DNA of 64,000 nt from positions 4,207,115 through 4,271,114 of the forward strand of contig OX422185.1 of the NCBI GenBank assembly GCA_949130485.1. The letters run 5' to 3'. Shown piece by piece: positions 9,701-62,100 of this stretch (the stretch's first letter is position 1; each line of letters starts with the position of its first letter). Source of the stretch: Agelas oroides. Its lineage: Eukaryota; Porifera; Demospongiae; Agelasida; Agelasidae. The notes below the pieces were generated by a model. The model worked only from the letters and a program-made list of their open reading frames with translations, did not search any database and was not told where the DNA came from. Position numbers and translations under genes: made by a program.

Positions 9701-12700
9701 CTATGATAATAATAATGTTCAGCAACTTGATGTGCAAGCTTATATAGTTGAGACAATGCTAGACTACACTAGTTATTTTAGAGGCAGAAGTTGTGATCTT
9801 GACTGCAAAAGACTTGCTGTACGTGTTGAATTTGTGTGGCGGGATGAATTTTTTTGCAAGTTTGTCCCTATGTGCACTACATGTTAGTATATGCGCTGCG
9901 CTATTTATTCAAGACGTATTTTCAAGAGTGCCTTGGGAATATAATGCATGGTGGCAATTGTTGAAGTTACATGCAGATTATCGACTTGACATTTTTACTT
10001 TTTCGAATGTTTCAATTATGTCATTCTTGTGTACTAGTTCTTGGTCTAGTGATCACTTCACTTTCTACTTCAACAAGATATATACCTCTTATAGCTAACA
10101 ATATTGTGCAGTATAGCTAATCTCTAGTCTCTTCAATTTTTCAGAGGAACATTCCCCGAGGACTGTTGTGGACAGTGTTTCCGACCTACCAGGAACTGTA
10201 AGCATGATTACACCAAACTATGAACAGCTTTTACCTTTTACACTGTGTTCACTGAAAAATCACAGGATGCCAGACATGCAATAAACCTCCTATAGTGTAT
10301 CCCAATGTCATTATGGCTACTACTTACATGCATATGCATGTTCAGTGATAATTCTATACTATGGTACATAATTATACAGATTCTGATGTATTTGTTTGTC
10401 AGTAAGCTACCATGTCAGAATGATTGCAAGTGATGTCATCATTGACCACAATTCATAAATACAAGATTTTTTATCTGAATAACATTGCCTTTTCTAACCA
10501 TAGCCACCAGAAAGCCATGAAGTAGATGACATGGATGAACACTCCAAAGGTTTAACCTTGAATTGTCTTTAATATAAAATTTGAGAAACCACCAGCCACT
10601 CATGATTACACCAACATTGATAAATCATTTTGCCAGATCAGAGGAAGCAATGGACATCTAATGTGACTTGATATTCATTAGTATCAAGGAAATCGTTTAG
10701 CAACACTAGCTACACCACCATCACCCCTCACACTAACCCCCAAAGTAATATCATGACATCATACATTCATATACCTAGGTAAAACAGTACTAAACTCTAT
10801 CTTCTGTGATCATCTTGGGGTGCAATTTAGACTTGAAATAAGAGGTAACAGATCATTTATATGCAAACTGAAATCATTAATCCTCATTGAGCTTTGCCTG
10901 TTAGAGAAAACCATCAACAAGAAATTTGAAAAGTTTACGTGGATGCTTGTACATGCAGCCTCATTCCTGGACTCTACCCTGCCCCTCAAGTCAGGGTGCT
11001 TATTATTCTTGGGGATAAGGCAACTGTACATAAGTAAAGGGACTGTGACAATTTCCAATATGGGAATGCAGATGACACTTCAATATGTTACATCATGGCC
11101 ACTGTGTTATATGGAGCAGACATAGCCCAGTTATAAGATGTAACTACCATTAGAGCCAGCATAAGATTATAATTATGTGCCAACTTGAGTTCTGTGTTGT
11201 ATATTGTAAAATCATTTTTTACAGACTACCTGAGAGGGTTGAATGTCATTGGAGAGATCAGTGTCCTGATCACCAGCAAGGCCCAGACCTTCCACTGGGT
11301 AGGCTATGGACTGAAGCTCCACATCCCCCAAGGGGCCCTACCAGCTGGCTTGAAGCAGTCTGAACTCACCATCAAGGTGGGCATATCTGGCCAGTTTACA
11401 CTCCCCCAGAACACGTCTCTTGTGAGTGCAGTCTACTGGCTTCACAGTGAGTACCAGTGTGAATTCTCCCAGCCCATCATAGTGGAACTACAGCACTGTG
11501 CAAAATCTTCACAAACATCAAAACTAAGCTTTGCAAGGTGCTCTCATTACAGTTTTCCATACAATTTTGAAATCCTGCAAGAAGGAAATTTTAGTCTAGA
11601 TGCATATGGGCGCATACAGCTTCGCAACTTTTCACTGATCACAGTGTTGAAGAGTTTGATATTTGGAGTAGATGACGTAAGGTACCATGCCTGGGTCTAC
11701 TACCTGTGGAGAGATGAGAATCAGAGAAAGATCCACTTTCTGATTACTAAGGACCTAGAAGCACATGCCACAGTATGTTCATTAAATTTTGAAATCAGTG
11801 TTATTTTCTAGTGTTGCTCATTAATGTTACTATGTAATTACAGGCAGTTGAACAGAAGTACAATGACAAAGGTGCCATAGTTGGACCACACCTACCAGTT
11901 GAGTTTGAAGCAAGTAGCATCTCACTGGAGCTACCTTCCAAGGGAGTTACTATTGGAAATGGATGGAAACTTCTTCCACTGATTTACCCAGAAGTGAGAT
12001 AGGTAGCTATGTGCATTGTTGGTCAGAACTCGTGATTACCAATGCTTGCTCTTATGCAGATTACTAAGGAATGGGTTGACAGTTTTGAGACTGGACGGGA
12101 AATCCCATCTTGCCAGATTAGAGCAGAATGGACTAAGCAGGGCAAGCCATCACAACTCACGCATGAAGTGACCCTCAAGGGTGCCAAGGAACCCAGAAAC
12201 TATTTCTACATTGAACTTGACTCTATCTCACCTGATACTACAGGTGGTAAGTTCATGTGTTGGCACAAGCCATTTGTGTATTGGCAGTTGGTCTCAGTAC
12301 TTCACCATTCAATCATCATTTCTAATGTTTTCACAAGAGTAAGTGCACTGCTTTGATAGTGTTAGTAATTTTGGATATCCACATGTCACATATGTAGCAT
12401 GGTATAGTTTATTCTATTAAACGCTTTTAAAGAGTAAGGCTGTATCATGATGTTGCGGGTATATGTATTGCACTAAATGGTGTCTAGATATTCAATGAGG
12501 ACATCTACACATGCACATCTCTTGCGACTCCATAATGTAGTACTCTTTCTCTTCCCAGGTGAATTGGACCGTGATCAAAGACCAAATGTCCAGTATAAGA
12601 ATGTTGATGACACTCGATTAGGCAAGTATCACATGACCACAATGTTGTATTATGTTACAGACATAGCCCAATATTATGATACAACTAAAATCGAGGCAGC

Positions 12701-15190: not shown

Positions 15191-15343
15191 TATTTATAGC
15201 TCAATGAATCTGCTAAGTGACGTCAGAGTAAACCCACAAGTGTTAGGAACAAGCCAGGGTATATAAGGACAGCATTAGACTCACTCAACGAACTAGAATA
15301 TTGTTAGACAATTTTTGGAAGACCTGGTGTATAAACCAGGTCT
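15191..15343 (+). ncRNA. snRNA-like unit, copy 1 (promoter to 3' hairpin)
   Basis: In order: tatttatagctcaatgaat (15191), palindrome TGACGTCA (15218-15225), block AACCCACAAGTGTTAGGAAC (15231-15250), TATATAA (15260-15266), Sm-like AATTTTTGG (15310-15318), and a perfect hairpin AGACCTGGT / ACCAGGTCT (15320-15328 with 15335-15343). TATA to Sm distance is 50 bp, so an RNA starting about 30 bp after the TATA box would be short, near 55 nt. The layout resembles Sm-class snRNA genes (upstream element, TATA, Sm site, 3' stem). It could instead be a short repeat with a promoter. No expression evidence. Confidence 0.4.
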
Positions 15344-15564
15344 ATCGTCAAAGAGTTCCTGGAACTTGGTTGGCCAGCCCTTGAGGTAACCTTGAACCCA
15401 GGCTTTCTGTTCCGGATTTTGTCTCGCAGGTTTGAGGCTACCCTTGAGGTGGGTGGGCACCAGCTACATGTGATTCTATATACTATACTGAGGAATTACA
15501 TGGCATTACAATGCAATACTATGTCTTTCAATGCTCCCTCAACCTTGGCTGGCCAGCCCTTAGG

Positions 15565-28508: not shown

Positions 28509-28754
28509 TGCACATTGTATGTATAGCAAACAAGTGTTGGGAACAAGAACAATGATGTACGTCACCATGTACTCTTGCACTACACAGATGCATTTGCACG
28601 CTGATTCTGGAACAGATGTATCTTCACCTAGCTGGCAGTGGCAACATCGACTTGTGTGTGCTCTTACTCATCGTAAGTTTGCCCACAATAAGCTGGAGCT
28701 GGTTATGAGTGTGGATGAGAGTTGTTTCTGTGAGTGAGTGATGTACATGTGGGT

Positions 28755-29262
28755 GTTGTGTTTGACGACGTGAGACTGAACTTTCTGGTCTGGTGTCGCT
28801 GGCGACATGGGGCTGTGAGCTTTCTGGTCTGGTGTTGTGTTTGATGACATGAGACTGAGCTTTCTGGTGTGGTGTCGCTGGCTGTGAGCTTTCTGGTGTG
28901 GTGTGTGTGTGACGATGTGAGACTGAGCTTTCTGGTGTGGTGTCGCTGGTGACACAGGACTGTGAGCTTTCTGGTGTTGTGTTGGACGATGTGAGACTGA
29001 GCTTTCTGGTGTGGTGTTGCTGGGGACATGAGACTGAGCTTTCTGGTCTGGTGTGTGTGACGACATGGGACTGAGCTTTCTGGTGTGGTGTGTGTGACGA
29101 CGTGAGACTGTGAGCTTTCTAGTGTGGTGTGTGTGACGACGTGAGACTGTGAGCTTTCTAGTCTGGTTTGGCTGGCAACATGAGACTGAGCTTTCTGGTG
29201 TGGTTTGGCTGGCTACGCGGGACTGTGAGCTTTCTGGTCTGGTGTGGCTGGTGACAGAGTTA
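28755..29262. repeat. Minisatellite, about 36-41 bp unit
   Basis: Repeats of gagctttctggtgtggtgt joined to ggcgacatgagactg-type segments. Read on the minus strand it gives open frames of repeated QKAQSH / QKAHSP words. I treat that as a by-product of unit lengths divisible by three, not a gene. Confidence 0.85.
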
Positions 29263-29493
29263 AACTGATCACACCCATTCTAGACATACATGTTGTGTAC
29301 ACTGCTGGTGTTCTATATACATTGCAGTATATACGTAACTGCCTAGTGCAAAACCAATGATGCATCAACAACTCGTTCACGCTCGCTCCACAATGCACCA
29401 CATTCACCTAGTAATTATGTTCGTGTAAATGTGTACACTGCTGGTGTTCTTTTTAGGATGCAGTTTGTTAAACCTAGCACTAATTAACAGCAA

Positions 29494-29678
29494 TATTCAT
29501 AGCCCAATGAATACCTATGCTCCCCTGACGTCACACAAACCCACAAGTGTTAGGAACAAGGCAGGGTATATATAGGACAGCTGCAGCTTCCCTACCGAAT
29601 GCTTGCGAAGTTTTACCTGTGCCTGCAGCTCCAAAGAGTATACAAATTTTTGTAAAAACCTGGTTGTTTACTGGGTTT
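29494..29678 (+). ncRNA. snRNA-like unit, copy 2
   Basis: TATTCATAGCCCAATGAATA (29494), TGACGTCA (29526-29533), AACCCACAAGTGTTAGGAAC, TATATATA (29567-29574), Sm-like AATTTTTGT (29645-29653), stem AAACCTGG / CTGGGTTT (29656-29663 with 29671-29678). The stem differs from copy 1 at its second pair (A-T instead of G-C), a compensatory change. The middle holds its own pairing, AGCTGCAG with CTGCAGCT. Confidence 0.42.
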
Positions 29679-29883
29679 ATGTGTTGAAGGTTCCAAGTAC
29701 AGTAAAATTAGTATTTTACAAGGTTACCTGTGTAACATTTCCCACAAAGAGCTTCCATATTTTTACAACCAGTCGGCTATAGTTGAGCTTTGTTTCAGTT
29801 CACAGTCAAGTGACAGTAGGCGGCTGCTCGGTGGAGTACGAGTACAAACTGCTACGTCAGTTTACTACGACGGTGGGAGGAAC

Positions 29884-29921
29884 TAGGTGCTATTTGTGGC
29901 TTAAACAAAGCCAGAGCACCT
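29884..29921. other. Strong hairpin
   Basis: Arms AGGTGCT and AGCACCT enclose TGGCTT and AAGCCA around a short loop, giving about 13 paired bases. It lies between snRNA-like copies 2 and 3. Its role is unknown. Confidence 0.5.
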
Positions 29922-30203
29922 CACTGCAGGGCCACACAAAGTACATCTCAGATTGAAACAGAGTGCATGGTAGTGACTGAAATACTGCTGGACACTCGCA
30001 AAATGAGTACCCAGTAACTTAGCAAACAAATTGTGACAAGGTTGAACATTTATTAGGGAAAACTCTCTGTGTGGCCCTGCAGCTGTGTCATATGCATAAT
30101 TATTATATTATGAAACTCTGGTTTATGGCATTCTCTGCCCAACAATGCAAGCTAACTGGTGTAGCAGTTTGTACTGTAATGGATAAGTACTGTGACTATA
30201 GCG

Positions 30204-30308
30204 TGCCAGCGTACTTGAAGACAGCTGCAGACCAGCAGTGTGGAACTCTTTCCAGAGGGTGGAACACTGATGAATAACTTTTGAAAGACCTGGCTGTTTG
30301 TTGGGTCT
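30204..30308 (+). ncRNA. snRNA-like unit, copy 3 (decayed promoter)
   Basis: gccagcgtacttgaagacag matches gccagggtatataaggacag of the other copies but has lost its TATA box. A weak Sm-like AACTTTTGA (30276-30284) is followed by stem AGACCTGG / TTGGGTCT (30286-30293 with 30301-30308), fully paired if G-U is allowed. Upstream, CAGTGT / ACACTG can pair. Confidence 0.3.
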
Positions 30309-30528
30309 GTGTCTACTAACCATACACCAATGTTAGATCACAGCACACACATTATGTAGCTAGCAGCAGAGTCTCTCTCACTCTATATACTGTCTGTGAG
30401 TGCACTCACCCAGCTGGGTGGCTCCCTATGGGAGATGCTTTATCATCCCAGATATTCAGTACCTGCCAGCATTTCCCTTTCATCCAAGTTATTTATGTAA
30501 TGCTCGTAACATCAAATGTTTGTATTAC

Positions 30529-30551
30529 CCCCCCCCCCCCCCCCCCCCCCC
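30529..30551. repeat. Poly-C run
   Basis: About 23 consecutive C bases, followed by a short (ca)n tract. Confidence 0.85.
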
Positions 30552-30755
30552 TCCCTACACACACACACATGCATAGCGGAGTTAAGGATTCACTTTTGTC
30601 CATCAGTCTGCTGCAGAATCTTTGTCATTGCTATCAGTGAGCACCCAACTTATACTAGACAGCTTCATCATCATGAGGTGAGCCTGAGCGTTTTGTGTGC
30701 AGGTTCTAAGTGAGTTTATGGAGAGAATAATGAAGCACCCAGAGTAGACTGACAG

Positions 30756-30938
30756 TATTCATAGAGCTATGAATATTTGCTGCAAACGTCACAAAACCCA
30801 CAAAACCCACAAGTGTTAGGAACAAGCCAGGGTATTTAAAGACAGCTGCTGGTTATTCCACTACTGCTATCCGTAATGCTTTTTTGGTCTGTGGAATTAA
30901 CGACAAATTTTTGTAAGGCCTGGTCACCGGCTGGGTCT
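30756..30938 (+). ncRNA. snRNA-like unit, copy 4
   Basis: TATTCATAGAGCTATGAATA (30756), aacgtcac, AACCCACAAGTGTTAGGAAC, TATTTAAA (30833-30840), Sm-like AATTTTTGT (30906-30914), stem AGGCCTGG / CTGGGTCT (30916-30923 with 30931-30938), fully paired with G-U. The middle can pair TTATTCCAC with GTGGAATTAA. The upstream block aaacccac is repeated. Confidence 0.42.
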
Positions 30939-31034
30939 ATATTTCCTTTTTCTAGTGTCCACATCAAAGTCAAATTACAGCAGTTTCCCTATCACATGTA
31001 GCTAGCAGTTGTCATACTGTACCGTAACCCAAGG

Positions 31035-31138
31035 TATTTTAGGACGACTGCTGGTCATCTCTTTTGTGATTTTCATCCTTATTCTGTACCTTGGTCTCCA
31101 AGAAAAATTTTTTGAGGACCTGGACACTTGCTGGGTCT
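31035..31138 (+). ncRNA. snRNA-like unit, copy 5 (shortened promoter)
   Basis: TATTTTAGGACGACTGCTGG (31035) corresponds to the TATA region of copy 4. Sm-like AATTTTTTG (31106-31114) and stem GGACCTGG / CTGGGTCT (31116-31123 with 31131-31138) follow. It lies only about 200 bp after copy 4 and lacks the far upstream block. Confidence 0.35.
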
Positions 31139-32143
31139 ATTTCCACATCAATGATACACCACAGCACACATGTAGTTTGTTACACATCTACTGTCAGTGT
31201 AACGTTGTTCCCAGGCTCTTCACCACAACTTTATGTGACAAGACTGTTAGGAGCATGGGATAGAGAGTTACCAACCCGAATGTGTGACAATCAAAGTGTA
31301 AATCTATCTAAATTTTATCTTAGCACGTGTACATTCCTTGTGGCAAGGTCATTCAGGCAAAGTCATGTGCAAATTTTTGTCGTTGGTTTGAGAAAAGGAC
31401 TTTGCGTGAAAGCTAAAATTAAGGGCATGAGTACAAACCTTTCGGTGGGGAACATTGGTCATCTGATTCTAAAATTACATTGCCACAATCCCTTGCCGTA
31501 TTGCTATATAATGTAACCAACGTACACAGAGCTAGCTAGTGGAATTATGTAACATGCATTGTTAGATTGTACAGATCTAAAAGCAAATCGCTGTAACCAG
31601 CGTAAGGTGGAAGAAATCCAGCTCTTTTCAACAAACAAGTCTTTGTGGGACTACAAGTCAGTAACGATAGTTTCCCAATGTTTTATATCAGGGATATAAT
31701 TTGTACTGGGCTCACTGTGTTGCAACGTGGCATTGACAACATTCAGTGGGTCTAGTATGGGGGGAGCAGCAGCTTTCGGTAGTAGATTTGAACAGTGACA
31801 AACCACTCTGAATGGCATATCAAGCAAAGAGTTGGCCAAATTCCATCTAGATCAAATTTACTGCTACTTGTGTGGCTTTATTCAAGTTTTGTGAGACCTC
31901 CTGGGTCAAAGAACAGCTCGTAGAAGCGATTTTGACAGCCTCACTTGTCTATTCTAAAATGACGACACAAATGCATTGCGTTTCCATTCCATATTATTCC
32001 ACTCTACTATCTATGGGCTCAAATACACTAGATAGATACGTTACTGAGCATGTATGAAACACGTGATCCCAACACTAACAGAAGTTTATGGCAAGCCGTT
32101 TGTTTCAAAATTGTCGATCCAAAAATTGTGATGTGTGCGTCTC

Positions 32144-32773
32144 CAGAATCGACTCGATTGTGCTCAGAATAGACTCGATTGTGATAAGAATCGACTCAAT
32201 TGTAATAAAAATTGACTCGATTGTGATAAGTAAGAATCGACTCGATTGTGCTCAGAATAGACTCGATTGTGATAAGAATCGACTCAATGTAATAAAAATT
32301 GACTCGATTGTGATAAGAATCGACTCGATTGTGCTCAGAATAGACTCGATTGTGATAAGAATCGACTCAATTGTAATAAAAATTGACTCGATTGTGATAA
32401 GTAAGAATCGACTCGATTGTGCTCAGAATAGACTCGATTGTGATAAGAATCAACTCAATGTAATAAAAATTGACTCGATTGTGATAAGAATCGACTCGAT
32501 TGTGCTCAGAATAGACTCGATTGTGATAAGAATCGACTCAATTGTAATAAAAATTGACTCGATTGTGATAAGTAAGAACTGACTCAATTGTAATAAAAAT
32601 CGACTAGATTGTCCGCAAAATCGACTCGGTCAAAAAACTGACTTGATTGTGATAAGAATCGACTCGATTGTGATAAGAATCGACTCGATTGTAATAAGAA
32701 TCGACTCGATTGTCCGCATAATTGACTCGGTCAAAAAAACCGATTCGATGCAAAACTATCAACTCGATTGTGT
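32144..32773. repeat. 21-bp minisatellite with ~171-bp higher-order unit
   Basis: Variants of agaatcgactcgattgtgata; the core aatcgactcgatt is itself palindromic. An extra agta marks a higher-order period of about 171 bp (near 32229, 32400 and 32570). Open frames of repeated RIDSIV words follow from the 21-bp unit and are not evidence of a gene. Confidence 0.9.
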
Positions 32774-33118
32774 GCCATATACCGGGAGGTGTGTGCAGGC
32801 TAGATGCACAAAAGTAGGGGGAGCTGTACTATAGTGTTAGACTACACCCCTTAATCACCCCACACGTGCAATGAAAGTTACACTGGGTTGCTTACTTTGG
32901 AGGGTGAAGCAAGTCCAAAATAGTTGTGGCTGAATGCCTAGACATGGCAGGTAAGCTGACTCTTGAGACTTAAGTTTATGGTCACTTCAAATTCACATGC
33001 ATATTCGTAAGTGCATGTGTTGAGCTGAGTCAGCAAAATGGTAGAGGATTAACCTCTGCCAGTATGTGTGCCAATTACAATAGCTTAATACCAGTCACAC
33101 AGTGAACCCTAGCTATCA

Positions 33119-33200
33119 TATTCATAGCCCATAGAAACAGCCAGGGTATATAAGGACAGCTGCCAGAAAGACAGCACGGAACAACAGAATAACTTTGGTT
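33119..33200 (+). ncRNA. snRNA-like unit, copy 6 (broken)
   Basis: Has TATTCATAGCCCA and ccagggtatataaggacagctgcc (TATATAA at 33147-33153), but the block between them is deleted. The 3' part has only a weak AATAACTTTGG and no 3' stem. Likely dead. Confidence 0.25.
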
Positions 33201-33716
33201 GACCAGAAATTAAGCTGCTTTGTACTTTGTCGACGCTGAACATGCAACTGCTATCCAGCATAACAGCTACACTCTTGCTCTCTGTATCTGAAATTGTAGA
33301 GGTGCTACCAAAACTGGGAAGGTCTTGTGGGAGATCTCAATAGTTCAGTGCCTAAAATTTGAGAAATTTATCACTGCCCATTCTGGGCAATGTGAAGTAA
33401 TAGTATGAGTAATGCCCTACATACTAATAATATACTTTAAAGTATATTTGCATACTATAAACTGCTATAATCATTATTAGTGTAGCTACATAAGTGGTGG
33501 AACCAGGGAGGGTGGGTGGGGTCCAGAAGAACGCAAGATGATAGGGTGGCAAGCTTCAGTGGTGAGAGGCGAGGAAGCGGGGAACTTCCGCGAAGTAGCT
33601 GGTGTGTCCATCGTTGCTGCAGGCGGTCCACGTTAGACACTATAAACTGTAGACAGCCAAGCGGCAGTATTCTGACTCTTCTTCTGTAGCTTGCTCACCC
33701 TTGTCAGACTATTCCA

Positions 33717-33910
33717 TATTCATAGTCAATGAATATCTCTAAACCTGCAATGAATACTCCACCACTAGCGTCACACTAAACCCATAAGTGTTTGGAACAA
33801 ACCAAGGTATATAAGCTAGGGCTGTTAAGGTCAGACTGCTTGCAACCTGCAGAGCAGTCCAACCATCCTGTGGAAGGAAAATTTTTGGAAGACCTATTTT
33901 AATTGGGTCT
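33717..33910 (+). ncRNA. snRNA-like unit, copy 7
   Basis: TATTCATAGTCAATGAATA (33717), agcgtcac, a variant of the conserved block (acccataagtgtttggaac), TATATAA (33818-33824), Sm-like AATTTTTGG (33880-33888), stem AGACCTA / TGGGTCT (33890-33896 with 33904-33910). The middle has a strong hairpin, GACTGCTTGCA with TGCAgAGCAGTC (33834-33859), though part of it may lie before the start site. Confidence 0.4.
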
Positions 33911-34113
33911 ACACACTCTAACACATGTGCCCACACAATACTATGCTGTATGTGTGTAACCTGGAAGTCAGATATAGTCAACTACATTATGAACACTACT
34001 GGACTGTCTCTGTACCTCAGTGATGTAAGCTACCAAGACTGGTAACATTCCATTTTGATTGGTGAAGACACTCATATTGAAACGAGGAAGCCATACACCT
34101 GGGTGGCCACAAT

Positions 34114-44149: not shown

Positions 44150-47100
44150 GTGAGTAACCTTTCTTTCTAAACATGCTAACTTTGGGCCAAACACAGTGAG
44201 TAAATATCAGGTGTACATTGGATGTCTAGTTGTGTGCGTAAGCATGAACACAAGGGTGATAAACAGCACACTCGTGTTATAATAAACATACAACATACAC
44301 TGTATACACCTTCAATATGGTTGCTGTACACGATGTTTGTTGGAGATGACTATACCGCTAACAGTATATTGGTATGTGATATGTTGAGACTGCAGTCATG
44401 AGATTACACTAAGCTGACCGTCTAATTTTGTAAGAAGTAAATAATCTTTCTTTCTGTCCATCAGGGGAATTTTCGACACATAGCCGTCATACAGGGCAAT
44501 CTAGACACATTGAGACACCTTATTGAGAAAGGAACTGATATTGATATTGATGTCAGAGATGACAATGGGGTAAGTCAACAATTCATACCGATACAAGTGT
44601 ACAACTCCTGCATGGTTTCTACATCTATATACCATCTGGACAGTATGATACATGCAACAGCAGTTAACGAGACCAACAACTCTGCATATTGTAAGGTGCT
44701 AACTGCATGGCACCTTATAAAAGCCACTTGAGGCCCAGCTAACTACCCATCCTTTGTGCATGTTTGGGTATCAGATTTTTGGAGCAGTAATGCCCCAAAC
44801 GTCACCAGAAGGTTAGGGCTTAACCTTAACCCTGCACCCAAGCAACCCTGAACCTCACCCTTCTCTACTCATGCACACACGCCATCTCCTTACAAGAGTA
44901 GCATTACAGATGACAAACTGATAGAATGATATAGACTCAGGACATGAATACACAATAAACACAACCTGACATACACCATGAGTTGTATATATAACACTAA
45001 GACTGTGTTAGAGATTTGCTGAGAGTGGATGTGAATTAGAACAAACACAGAGCTTCGCTACCAGCCGAGAGTTTGGATGACTGAATCAGGGATACTGCAG
45101 TGTGCTGTTGTTGTCACAGCTCCTATCCTAAACTGTGGCCGGCGTAGACCTGACAATCCACTCCAGCTTTCATCAGAGCACTGCGAACAGCCTGCACGAA
45201 ATGTTCCCTCGTTAAACTTCTGCTATCACCAAGTTGAAAAAGTGGACCCTCTTTATCACCGCATATTGCAAGGTAGGCGAGCATAGCCGAAATTGGGCAA
45301 AGTGCATTTCTCATGCAACCAACATATACATTGACACCCTTCCTGTATGGATCTGTTTTCGAAGCCTTTAAGTGGATTTCCATAACAGATGGGCTTTCTT
45401 TGCTGTCAATGGCTACATCTTCAAAAGTCAGTTGGGCTCCTGCATCAAAAGACATGTCAGTTGGTACAGTGATCTCGCCTGCTCTGAAGAAGCCAAAGAA
45501 ACATAGCGTGCACGCTGCCCAGAGCATGATGCAATTATAAACGGTGGATGATTGCTCCCACACCGTCCGTATCTGCCGTAGTATGTTGTATGTTTGGAGT
45601 AATAGGTAAGCGCTTCCTAGGCTTCTTACCTTGACGTACCTGAGAAGACTTAATACCCTGCTCCAACCTTGGCATATATATTAATTATTTCCAAATTGGT
45701 ATACGATTTCAAATGCCTGTTGATCAAAATGACTTCTACGTAGCTATTGACATTAAATGCAGTACTGCACAGCCAAAGTGATAAGTTAAATGGAACAAAG
45801 TAATATATCAATTTTGTCAGCCAAGGAGCCTGACAAAGGCTGTTGAGAGCATTCAGAAGTGAGGCAGTGAAATGGTACATAATAGTGGACTGGAGAAGAG
45901 CATGGGGGAATGTCCACTCACAGCTTGCCGTGAGTATATGCCCATGCTTTACTCAAACCTAGGCCATATTCAAGTAACAGCAAGGAACAAGAAGTGCATG
46001 TTGCCCAGCTATTTGTAGATTATTGCTGCATGGACTGAACATGGAAGAAACAACTTTGATTTGTGGAACGTGTGAATGTGATCAAGTGATACATACAGTA
46101 TGAATGAAAGCAGTTATTGGGGCGAGCCTGAGCGAGCCCCACACTAGCGAGTTGGCTGGTGGATTCTCAATATGTACGTATGGTACGTACGTGATTCCGT
46201 ATATATACATCCTGCCCATTTGTGCACGATACAATATTTCCATATTGCATGTTGTTTCATGTAACCACTGTTGCTCAAGAGACAAGGCTAGCAGGACAGA
46301 AAGGCTGAACAGTGGGAACCAACGTAACAGGGACTTAAAAACGGTGAGGAAAGGGAGGCACGACTAGCAAGACGGAGACTGATTATTAACGTACTCCGTG
46401 ACACTGCCGCCACCGGGAGTGCTCAGTGTATTAAAGACAGCGATTATCTTGTGAGGACCCGAACCAGAGAGGTCTGCGTGTCACAACTCCAGTAATTTTG
46501 CTCTGGAAAGGGACAATATAGTCTACACCACCCTGACTACCAACAGTGGTGTTGAGATAGCAATGACACAGCCCTAATGGAAAAACTGAACCAACCAACA
46601 TCCACTAACTCACTGGCAATGTGTAAAAAAACTACTACCATACACCATTTGAAGCTCATTTGGTCAATAGAAAGTACAATGTAAGCTCTCTTGTAAACAG
46701 GAAATAATATGTCATCACTTTTATATCACACTAATGTCATGTTGTTTACAACAAAAATTGATAAACCATAACGGTGATTGTGTACACAAGAAAAAGCATG
46801 TTAGTCTCTTCCAAACCAGTTCATTGTTTCTCACCCCTAAGCAGAAAACTAGATGTGGGTTGGCCAAGAATTGAAGACTTTCAATTACGAGGTCATTCCT
46901 GTGTGAATAATGTACAACACTGCCTTTGTCATTTATACACTCGGATGAGGCACAGTAGACAAACAGCAACTTTACTTCTTACTAAACGCCACACCAACTT
47001 CGACACCTCGACAAGAAGTGCAAAAGGGCATGCGTGTATACAAACTGCGCATGCATAATTGTAGTCTTTGGCATACTGCTTGCCCAGGCTCGCCCCACAA

Positions 47101-59100: not shown

Positions 59101-62100
59101 TACAAACAATGCAGACATTATGACAGTCTAGGCAAGTGGCAGACATTCACTTATGTGTAGCTATCTGTTTCAAAAGGATGCATACATTCATAGTACCAAC
59201 TGAGTAAGTTCTGCTACCCTCTGTAGTATGTCAGAATGTTGGTCATTACCCACAGTACATATTTTACTTCATTACTTAAATGTTGCCACTGGAATAGTCA
59301 ATACCCTACACTACCCTCAAATAGTAGCTCCACAACTGGTAGTCTCGTCCCCAGACCGAATTTTATGCACGTGACCTGCGGCCTTGTTGATGGTCTGGAC
59401 ACTTTCACAAGAAAACTGGATCCAGTTGATGTATAGTGGCCAGTAATTGTAGGTGTGGTGATGTATACACGTAATTTACTTCCCTCAGCAATCTGATTGG
59501 TATTACAACATACCACTACAGCTTATACTTAGGCCCCAGTTTTCCCAGTGAACGTGTTCAGACTCTGTTTTTGCAGCGCACACTCGAAAACCTCGGTCTG
59601 GGGACAAAGCTACAAAACTGGAAGAGGTGAGCAAATAATCCACTACTTGCCAGAAGGTGTCATAGTGATTATGGTACTGCTGATTCTAAGTTCAAGTTAG
59701 CTCATTCTCAGGCCACCAATAAGTTTGTCACAAAGAGATTTAGATGTTATGGGGAAATAAAAGAAAGTGAAAAGGCCGGCAGCTGCAGGGAATCAAACCT
59801 AGGACAACCTGGCTTTAGCAGCTAGTACTCTACCACTGAGCTACAACAGCTGGCTAACCTGCCTGGATATCAGTTAATTTTTTGCTTCCTTTTGTAGTTT
59901 ATTTCTCTCCATCAGGTGACTTACCTGCACTTGGCAGTTCAAGGAGGCCATATGAACACTGTGAAATACCTTGTTGACAAAGGAGCTAGAATCAACATCA
60001 AAGATGATCATGGGGTAAGTGTTTGAGACTATAGCAGTGAAAATAGATTATTTTAAAACAAAAGCTTGTTAGTTGAGGATTTGTGGTAATTACTTATTGT
60101 AGATGACAGTGGTATTCATGTTTGTGAACAGAGTGAGGAATAAATTTAGGGAGAAAATATGTTGGATCCAGCTGGGATTCAAGTTAACCCAATACTGAAT
60201 ACCATAGCCTAGCACTCTTACCACTAAGTTACTTGGACCCATGGGCTAGGTAAGCAGCATTGCCTAGAAGCCTCAGCTGAATTCCAACTTAAGAGTATCT
60301 AAATAACTAGTAGAAATTGGGTTTGAATCTGGTCATCACAGTTGTAGCATATGAGGAGGATGAGTACTAGTATTTATACACAATGCTAGTCTTCCTAAAC
60401 TACATTACCTACTTGAAATTCGTTACTATTTTTACATCAGCGGACTCCCCTGCACATGGCAGCTAGAGAAGGCTGTGACTCCACAGTAAAACTCCTTGCT
60501 GACAAAGGAGCTGATATCAACATCAAAGATTATAATGGGGTATGTGAGGCTATACTACTGACATTGCATTAATATTGTACCTTGACAATAAATAGTGTCT
60601 GTGTCTCCATAGATAGTAGTTCTACTACTCTACTATCTTTGCAGTCTCCATGCAAGTATGCCTTAACCCAGTAATCCCTAAACAATCTATTTGGCATCTT
60701 TTGCTTACATCAGCACTGTGAAAATGTGCTGTGGAGATACGTAGGGTCTGGTTATTTTCTATGGTGGGACAGGTGGACGTGGGTGTAAACCTATGGGTAA
60801 AAGCACCAGCTGACAGCTGTTGGGTTTTGCTATAGAAAAATCTTTGTGGATCATTTCTCTCCTTCTTGGCACAAGCTTAGAAAATGCTCTTGTTGGTCCT
60901 CCATTTCTGGCACTGGAGGCAGTTTTCAGTCTGGTTACAAAATGTAGTTAGAGTCATAAATCTGCACACAATGGCTGAAAGCACCCTTGGCTGAAAGTCT
61001 ATTTGGCTTAGTCAGCTTTGCCAGACCTTTTATCCACCCAGTATTTGTTCAATGATGTCAGTGGCAACTCAGGTCAGTTAAGGTGGCCCCCAAATGTATT
61101 ACTCATGACACAGAAGTATGCGAAAGTATTGCTATAGTTCGTGAAAGTATTTCCATAGTTTGCAGAGATTGAATAGCTGCGTGTGTAAGCTTCTTAGCTT
61201 TGCCACTGTTAGTCTAGCTGCTAGTCCATATTGTTTAGCTTTGTATTATCGATGGTGTGAAGTAGGTGGGTCTGACCAAGAGTTTATAACAGTAAGAGTG
61301 TGCAGTTCCCATATGGTTTGGTTCTCAATACTTTCACGCCATATTTGATGCCCCCTCACGTGATACGTGTGGGTGGAGCATGCATTGCGCATGCGTAGTA
61401 TAGTATGGCACTTGTATGACGGTTGAGCTGTACACATTAGACGGAAAGGTGTGCATGATCGTTCGAAAATGCATGTGGTCTAATGGTTAGGGCTCAGTGT
61501 ACAGGTTAGGGTTAGGGTTAGGGCTAGGGTCAGGAAGTGGGGTTTATTCCATCTTTTTTTTTTTTAAAAGTGGCAAACACCTTATGCGGTGCCACTTGTG
61601 GCAATGTGGTGTAAGTACGACGTAGGGACCCTGGCCCCACCCCCTCATGGGTCATGTGACAGGGGACATGAAACAGCGTGAAAGTAATGAGACCCCATAT
61701 GGTTTCTATACCCGCCATCTGGATAGGATGACATAGGCAATCAGCAGTGAATATTGTAAGCTGTGAAAACACAGCAGTAAAGAGACGGGCTTTTACTACA
61801 GTGTTCACATAGCTAATGTACACTAGCACCTAGAATGGCTTCATGTTAAGTACCTACTAAGCATACTCACTGCTGATTGCCTATGTCATCCTATCCAGAT
61901 TGCGGGTGTAGAAACCATATGGGAGTTGCACACTCTTACTGTTATAAACTCTTAGTCTGACTTACCAAAGGGTTGCCATTGAGACCAAGCATGGCGTGTT
62001 TCCGGGAGCAAGAGAGAGGAATATGGCTGGAGCTACTGGAGTGACGATGACCTATCATCTTTGGAGGTTGATGCGGAATGTCAGATGCTTAAATTTCTGG

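Follow-up and report, generated by a model that had tools for sequence, protein, structure and literature searches.

In the sponge Agelas oroides we found a family of short units in which a promoter of the spliceosomal small nuclear RNA (snRNA) type is followed by a variable body, an Sm-type site and a 3′ hairpin. The analysis centred on a stretch of 64,000 nucleotides (nt) of contig OX422185.1 (C3:4,207,115–4,271,114, hereafter the window), which lies in the left part of a cluster of such units on C3, together with the whole assembly of 259 Mb in 141 contigs. The family has hundreds of copies with mostly unrelated bodies in this genome. Its promoter is the RNA polymerase II (Pol II) promoter type of the U4, U5, and U12 genes of the same species, and its hairpin is an RNA structure under selection, as judged by compensatory changes. 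We assign a probability of about 0.55 to the reading that the units form one large family of genes for Sm-class RNAs, in which the variable 5′ part is probably an antisense guide; the transcription of the units, the guide function, and the targets are what we infer from these features.

Promoter and 3′ module of the units

To compare the units with the snRNA genes of the same genome, core patterns of U4, U5, and U12 were searched for and found at 5, 10, and 1 places, respectively, and Rfam confirmed all 16 as U4, U5, and U12. In every one of these genes the 20-mer most similar to the unit box, sought at any upstream position without anchoring, ended 39–42 nt before the 5′ end assigned by Rfam. 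The mismatches to the box ranged from 2 to 8 of 20, the nearest being those of U5 genes (2) and the farthest that of U12 (8), while at the same offsets only 10 of 3000 random places in the window reached 8 mismatches or fewer. A TATA-type element started at −29 to −32 in all 16 genes when a loose pattern was used (TACAAA in L115); a stricter TATA pattern failed on L114 and L115. ATGAATA or TATTCAT was present in the short upstream stretch of 11 of the 16 genes. In 92 units these words numbered 134 across the 7.4 kb that lie between −100 and −20, versus 4 across 12.1 kb further upstream. A weak pyrimidine-purine (YR) initiator was seen 38–39 nt past the box in 46 of the 92 units, which agrees with the +1 position taken from U4, U5, and U12. 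Because the units were searched for by their box, its near-perfect column conservation is inflated, which does not apply to the Sm site. All 16 snRNA genes and the four complete units of the window, the latter with a predicted +1, thus qualify as Pol II snRNA-type genes.

U4, U5, and U12 genes are transcribed by Pol II in animals, and the combination of box and TATA element therefore does not necessarily point to Pol III. In the units, the Sm site has the canonical AATTTTTGG form and is itself a run of five T. Such a run signals Pol III to stop, and selection nevertheless acts on the hairpin that follows; Pol II would therefore be favoured over Pol III.

The 3′ module was examined in an alignment (A1) of 69 tails. 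These were taken from 75 tails that had been filtered from the 92 units for a stem near the Sm site; the six left out include C3:4449780 and C3:4143088, which have poor stems. A1 shows a 9-bp helix with 92.1% standard pairs, and seven of the nine pairs have changed on both sides. The number of two-sided cells in the hairpin was 56 compared to 11.6 after shuffling, and none of 500 shuffles reached the observed value. When the hairpin filter was omitted, a stem of at least 7 bp was found in 66 of the 92 distinct units versus 39.9 after swapping of the 3′ halves, a value not reached in 1000 swaps. The hairpin was part of the minimum-energy fold (MFE) of all four complete units of the window. The z-scores of the whole-unit folds were −1.3, −0.6, −1.8, and −5.2 for units A, B, C, and D, respectively, so that only D clearly beats its shuffles. 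With column information near 2 bits at the Sm site and the hairpin following it, the units have the arrangement of Sm-class RNAs.

The 3′ end of the units may descend from that of U4. Three of the five U4 genes end in AATTTTTGAAGACC...GGTC, one base short of the AATTTTTGGAAGACC...GGTC of the units, and the other two end in AAGATC. A covariance model built on the 69 unit tails (R1) gave, however, only weak scores of at most 9.4 bits (E 0.16) in three of the five U4 genes.

Family size, clustering, and the variable body

Genome-wide, the box AACCCACAAGTGTTAGGAAC was found with up to 3 mismatches at 424 places (117 + 307), and the reversed pattern at 40 (24 + 16). The 3′ pattern AATTTTTGGAAGRCCY-(6-24)-RGGTCTA had 104 exact matches (29 + 75), the control none. 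Among 100 listed matches to the 3′ pattern, 83 lay within C3:4.10–5.35 Mb, and the remaining 17 were on C1, C2, C5, C10, C11, and elsewhere on C3. The two ends of the units are coupled: 84 of 94 distinct box places read, with at most 1 mismatch, had AATTTTTGGAAGACC at up to 3 mismatches 35–150 nt downstream, whereas the background was 43 of 3000 random stretches of sampled DNA that itself contains units. Conversely, 12 places, including five duplicate pairs, were selected on their 3′ module only, and the box was present at up to 2 mismatches in 11 of them. The sole exception, L108, lacks bases inside the box and gave no match within 4 substitutions. The box numbers, the coupling, and the exact 3′ pattern together place the units beyond chance. 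Neither the box in collections of viral and prokaryote sequences nor the 3′ pattern in viral contigs gave a match. For the unit set, 102 distinct places were read; 95 of them had a candidate Sm site, and 92 of these were distinct in sequence.

Some further observations concern the organisation of the family. At C3:5.27–5.35 Mb (L099–L109), five units reappear at an interval of about 36.7 kb, with about 460 bases around each being some 99% identical; interval and identity point to a recent segmental duplication, and two of these five units have older copies in L101 and L110. Inverted-repeat inserts whose ends are AGCCTCGTACCCAGGC-like interrupt the units at L011, L039, L049, and L091 or lie beside them. 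At L039 and L040 (C3:4761821 and C3:4773610), the box is seemingly nearer to that of U4 (AACCCACWAKTGGTTYGTAC) and a longer 3′ hairpin ends in GGAGTAGTYAGTGGGC, so that by sequence these two are perhaps a second subfamily.

Between the predicted +1 and the Sm site lies a body with a mean length of about 39 nt (90 bodies). The column information is close to zero across it, and its folding does not differ from that of shuffled sequences (mean z 0.03, 90 bodies). Clustering of 101 bodies at 70% identity gave 88 clusters, and the top k-mers shared among the 90 bodies occurred in at most 13 of them each. The middle is therefore variable, as an earlier sequence-only reading of the window had described it, with almost no sequence or structure shared between bodies.

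Most of the bodies read are unique, and some have been retained at distant places. In searches of the whole genome, the unit A body (29594–29656) was found again only in a single segmental copy at a distance of 107 kb, the unit B body (30848–30911) matched only itself, and one further body only its duplicate. The unit C body matched C3:4143131 and C18:5247107, the latter being a unit with box, TATA, and hairpin, and another body matched C3:4469305 and C3:5348932 at 88%, two places known from the search only. The retention of the unit C body across chromosomes (L126 and the window) is accompanied by complementary words, GACTGC...GCAGTC, around the predicted +1.

Comparison of duplicated units indicates how bodies come to differ. 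Older copies differ: in a tandem group of four units at C3:4413631–4425205, body windows were down to an identity of 0.31–0.55, compared to 0.43–0.97 for windows of either side that lie outside the promoter. For unit B and C3:4130662, a common upstream kilobase is 95% identical and ends 53 nt past the box start, just before the predicted +1; their bodies differ, and beyond the 3′ module the two are again unrelated. As the identity ends just before +1, breakpoints near the body start also exchange bodies.

Units and other features of the window

Searching the window with R1 located six 3′ modules on the plus strand at E < 0.001, and two further matches followed with E-values of 0.15 and 0.35. 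The training rows of R1 include the tails of units B, C, and D, together with that of a near copy of A, but not the modules at 30273 and 31103; for A–D the model therefore gives only the location and is no independent test. Four units are complete (A–D, Table 1), and in each of them the box is followed by a TATA-type element after 9 nt, an Sm-type site, and a hairpin.

The sequence-only reading had listed six same-strand units within 4.4 kb (29494..33910), with a shared promoter module in the better-preserved copies. Three of these, A, B, and C, are complete and the other three are partial. The fixed-spacing conserved promoter that it described likewise holds for three of the six: the partial units at 30273 and 31103 have no recognisable box, and at 33116–33163 there is only a relic. 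Its five Sm-like sites with a stem were recovered, probably as the R1 modules of units A, B, and C and of the two partial units. Unit D, complete and outside that interval, had been overlooked, and the observation, which holds, is larger than first described.

Table 1. Unit components and relics in the window (positions are those of the window).
Feature	Position	Strand	Remarks
Upstream control region, unit A	29494..29537	+	TATTCATAG / CAATGAATA and TGACGTCA
Box of the proximal sequence element (PSE) type, unit A	29538..29557	+	AACCCACAAGTGTTAGGAAC; TATA start 29567; box type common to U4/U5/U12 genes
Variable 5′ body, unit A	29597..29644	+	Predicted +1 at ~29597–29598, by analogy with U4/U5/U12
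Sm-type site and 3′ hairpin, unit A	29642..29682	+	R1 29.9 bits; hairpin in MFE
3′ module, decayed unit without box	30273..30312	+	R1 26 bits; TATA-region relic 30199–30228
PSE-type box, unit B	30804..30823	+	TATA-like TATTTAA at 30833
Variable 5′ body, unit B	30863..30905	+	Genome search: self match only
Sm-type site and 3′ hairpin, unit B	30903..30942	+	R1 40.2 bits; hairpin in MFE
Sm-type site and hairpin, partial unit without box	31103..31142	+	R1 31 bits; TATA-like relic 31022–31051
Promoter relic	33116..33163	+	TATTCATAG and GCCAGGGTATATAAGGACAGCTGC present; without box, Sm site, or hairpin
PSE-type box, unit C	33779..33798	+	2 mismatches; TATA at 33808
5′ body, unit C	33838..33879	+	Kept in copies C3:4143131–4143193 (92%) and C18:5247107–5247170 (83%)
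Sm-type site and 3′ hairpin, unit C	33877..33914	+	R1 52.9 bits; hairpin in MFE
PSE-type box, unit D	15231..15250	+	TATA at 15260; outside 29494..33910
Short body, unit D (~20 nt)	15290..15309	+	
Sm-type site and 9-bp 3′ hairpin, unit D	15307..15347	+	R1 45 bits; fold z −5.2

Between units A and B lies a dispersed repeat of about 500 bases (29703–30175). It has at least 38 further matches of 72–78% on many contigs (with 40 of 384 candidates scored), and shorter reverse-strand matches at the edges of the copies mark inverted-repeat ends. Two tandem arrays were seen, one of CGACTCGATTGTGATAAGAAT-like 21-mers with a higher-order period of 171 bases at 32123–32750, within 29494..33910, and one of units like GAGCTTTCTGGTGTGGTGTGTGTGACGACGTGAGACT at 28624–29279, just 5′ of it, with long open frames on the minus strand. 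A tRNA-Phe-like gene on the minus strand at 59778–59850 (Rfam 33.8 bits) has the anticodon AAA. The usual tRNA-Phe anticodon is GAA, and the gene is perhaps a pseudogene. An open frame at 11173–11811 (+) contains a ZU5 domain (Pfam PF00791, E 2.3e-5), and a frame of 185 codons at 45123–45680 (−), for which Pfam gave no match, presumably resembles, judged by eye, a tyrosine recombinase of a mobile element.

Interpretation and comparison with known RNA classes

We propose the following explanation for the units. SNAPc and Pol II would make a capped RNA of about 60–90 nt from each unit, Sm proteins would assemble on AAUUUUUGG, and the hairpin would mark the 3′ end of the RNA. The 5′ part of about 40 nt, largely unstructured and specific to each gene, would pair with a target RNA, so that the RNA would work like U7 or the HSUR RNAs, with hundreds of different 5′ parts. 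The repertoire grows by tandem and segmental duplication, accompanied by recombination near or inside the units, and the body has diverged in older copies. A constant promoter, constant assembly and end signals, and a free 5′ part make up the anatomy of an RNA-guided Sm particle, from which the guide step is what we infer.

Several observations weigh against this explanation. The 3′ module was missing at 10 of the 94 box places, and 16 of the 92 units had a stem score below 5 bp. In five pairs of recent copies, about 99% identical over about 460 bases, four bodies had no differences and one had 2. In 11 of 13 pairs the body was less identical than its two flanks on average, but independent pairs gave 6 of 8 (Wilcoxon p = 0.078), so that a faster evolution of bodies than of flanks is suggestive only. 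Searching five bodies against the whole genome at E ≤ 10 revealed as candidate targets only the bodies themselves, duplicates, the C18 unit, and the two places known from the search only; this speaks against long near-perfect targets for those five bodies, not against pairing over 8–16 nt. The complementarity of bodies to U4 or U5 was no higher than that of shuffled sequences. In 225 kb of sampled DNA, body matches of at least 28 bits did exceed those of shuffled bodies (7 + 5 compared to 2 + 2), but these 12 include a duplicate unit and words of unit promoters or tails, the rest being exact words of 14–16 nt or one word of 18 nt with a mismatch. Overall, much the same would be seen if the bodies had no role.

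The main rival is an Sm-class RNA with an irrelevant body, that is, a multicopy Sm-binding RNA serving as an Sm reservoir or in Sm recycling, a role once suggested for SmY. Selection would then act only on the promoter, the Sm site, and the hairpin, and the 5′ part would drift freely. The absence of a common motif or fold in the bodies fits this idea, as does the finding that recent duplicates change no faster in the body, and among the Rfam families that matched units at sub-threshold scores SmY recurred most (in 9 of 20 loci, with 27.4 bits at best versus a gathering score of 39 bits). On the other hand, several duplicate groups have a near-random body while the flanks outside the promoter can still be aligned. 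Free drift would also not predict the unit C body kept between C3 and C18 at 83% or, for another body, the 88% match 880 kb away at a place known from the search only, though recent copying could explain both. The unchanged recent duplicates do not decide between drift and guide. On balance we consider the reservoir rather unlikely. More doubtful is the idea that the units are precursors of short guide RNAs, like Piwi-interacting RNAs (piRNAs) or small interfering RNAs, with the variable 5′ part cut out and loaded on Argonaute. The architecture at the DNA level is alike, since nematode piRNA clusters also combine SNAPc-type promoters, megabase-scale clustering, and a variable transcript; however, the primary transcripts of nematode piRNA loci are only about 28 nt long, with no Sm site or hairpin described in the part of the source consulted (PMC6436959), whereas here an Sm site and a covarying hairpin follow the body, and beyond the weak YR initiator no fixed 5′ base pattern was seen.

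An array of mobile repeats or snRNA pseudogenes without function appears quite improbable. It would account for the many copies, some of them decayed or interrupted by inserts, and for the partial units of the window. Against it stand the compensatory changes in the hairpin and the clustering, strand bias, and segmental duplication of the units, and retro-copies of Pol II snRNAs would be without a promoter. The promoter-bearing short repeat that the sequence-only reading named as its alternative is disfavoured on similar grounds, because the promoter and the 3′ module are common to the copies while the middle mostly cannot be aligned. The least probable reading is that of spliced-leader RNAs, with the body being a mini-exon plus donor site. 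A Pol II snRNA promoter, an Sm site, and the short length would fit it, but the bodies have no common mini-exon. Counted in the 90 bodies, GTAAG occurred once (3.6 expected), GTATG not at all (3.5), GTRAG 5 times (7.9), and GTRNG 11 times (19.6, z −2.4); as splice-donor words are not enriched but rather fewer, this reading was dropped.

The antisense-guide reading thus remains our best explanation, and the diversifying family of small Sm-class RNAs suggested by the sequence-only reading stands as far as the snRNA promoter type, the hairpin covariation, and the hundreds of copies with mostly unrelated bodies are concerned; active diversification, that is, change faster than drift, does not go beyond the suggestive. 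A broader and more tentative reading, which we hold possible but would not favour, is that of several hundred Sm-ribonucleoprotein guide RNAs with one promoter, one protein-binding tail, and hundreds of recognition parts of 40 nt. Within a megabase cluster, this repertoire would be renewed as its members duplicate and diverge, possibly as part of an arms race against transposons or viruses. If this is true, it would be an RNA-guided system built on the core of the splicing snRNPs and not on Argonaute or Cas. Each of the roughly ten kinds of Sm-class RNA in animals has a fixed job. A family of hundreds, with a common chassis and a 5′ part peculiar to each member, would give animals an RNA system of the repertoire type. 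In Drosophila, 11 Sm-class RNAs are listed (PMC4053861).

Rfam at the gathering score found no snRNA in the window and 20 loci. When the 20 loci were scored permissively, the lowest E-value belonged to a single SCARNA7 match over a unit (27.7 versus 65 bits, E 0.0019), and U5 appeared in one locus, like SmY below threshold. We know of no system with the combined layout, of which SmY, LU snRNA, HSUR2, and nematode piRNA clusters each share a part. No described family of this kind was found in the literature searched, which consisted of open-licence papers, mostly their titles and the starts of their abstracts, and this agrees with the sequence-only reading, to which no described family with such a layout was known.

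The units share the promoter box type, the TATA element, and the +1 spacing with the U4 genes of this genome, whose core was found at five places on C14 and C15, but they lack the 5′ domains of U4, and Rfam U4 (RF00015) matched neither the window nor any of 20 + 20 loci, the majority of which contain units. U7 resembles the units in layout: within about 60–80 nt it has a short antisense 5′ part that is single-stranded, followed by an Sm site and a 3′ hairpin. The units differ in having the canonical AATTTTTGG site rather than the U7 form and in their hundreds of different 5′ parts; Rfam U7 had no match in the scanned loci or the window. The HSUR RNAs, which have an Sm-class layout, are viral and few, whereas the units are cellular and number hundreds. 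HSUR2 of Herpesvirus saimiri finds its target RNAs by base pairing (PMC6763288). The SmY RNAs of nematodes are, like the units, small multicopy Sm-class RNAs; Caenorhabditis elegans has twelve genes with a conserved first stem-loop (PMC11229312), while the units have no conserved 5′ structure. An identity with SmY (RF01844) was rejected, given its sub-threshold best score among the 20 loci and bodies that are unstructured on average. The LU snRNA of Drosophila is an additional Sm-class snRNA with a PSE promoter, proposed to be derived from U5 by duplication; unlike the units, it is a single gene and has two conserved stem-loops (PMC4053861). The nematode piRNA clusters resemble the units in genomic organisation, with snRNA-type promoters and megabase-scale clusters of mini-genes that give a variable product (PMC6436959), and beside them the units would be another case of an snRNA promoter serving a megabase cluster of mini-genes.

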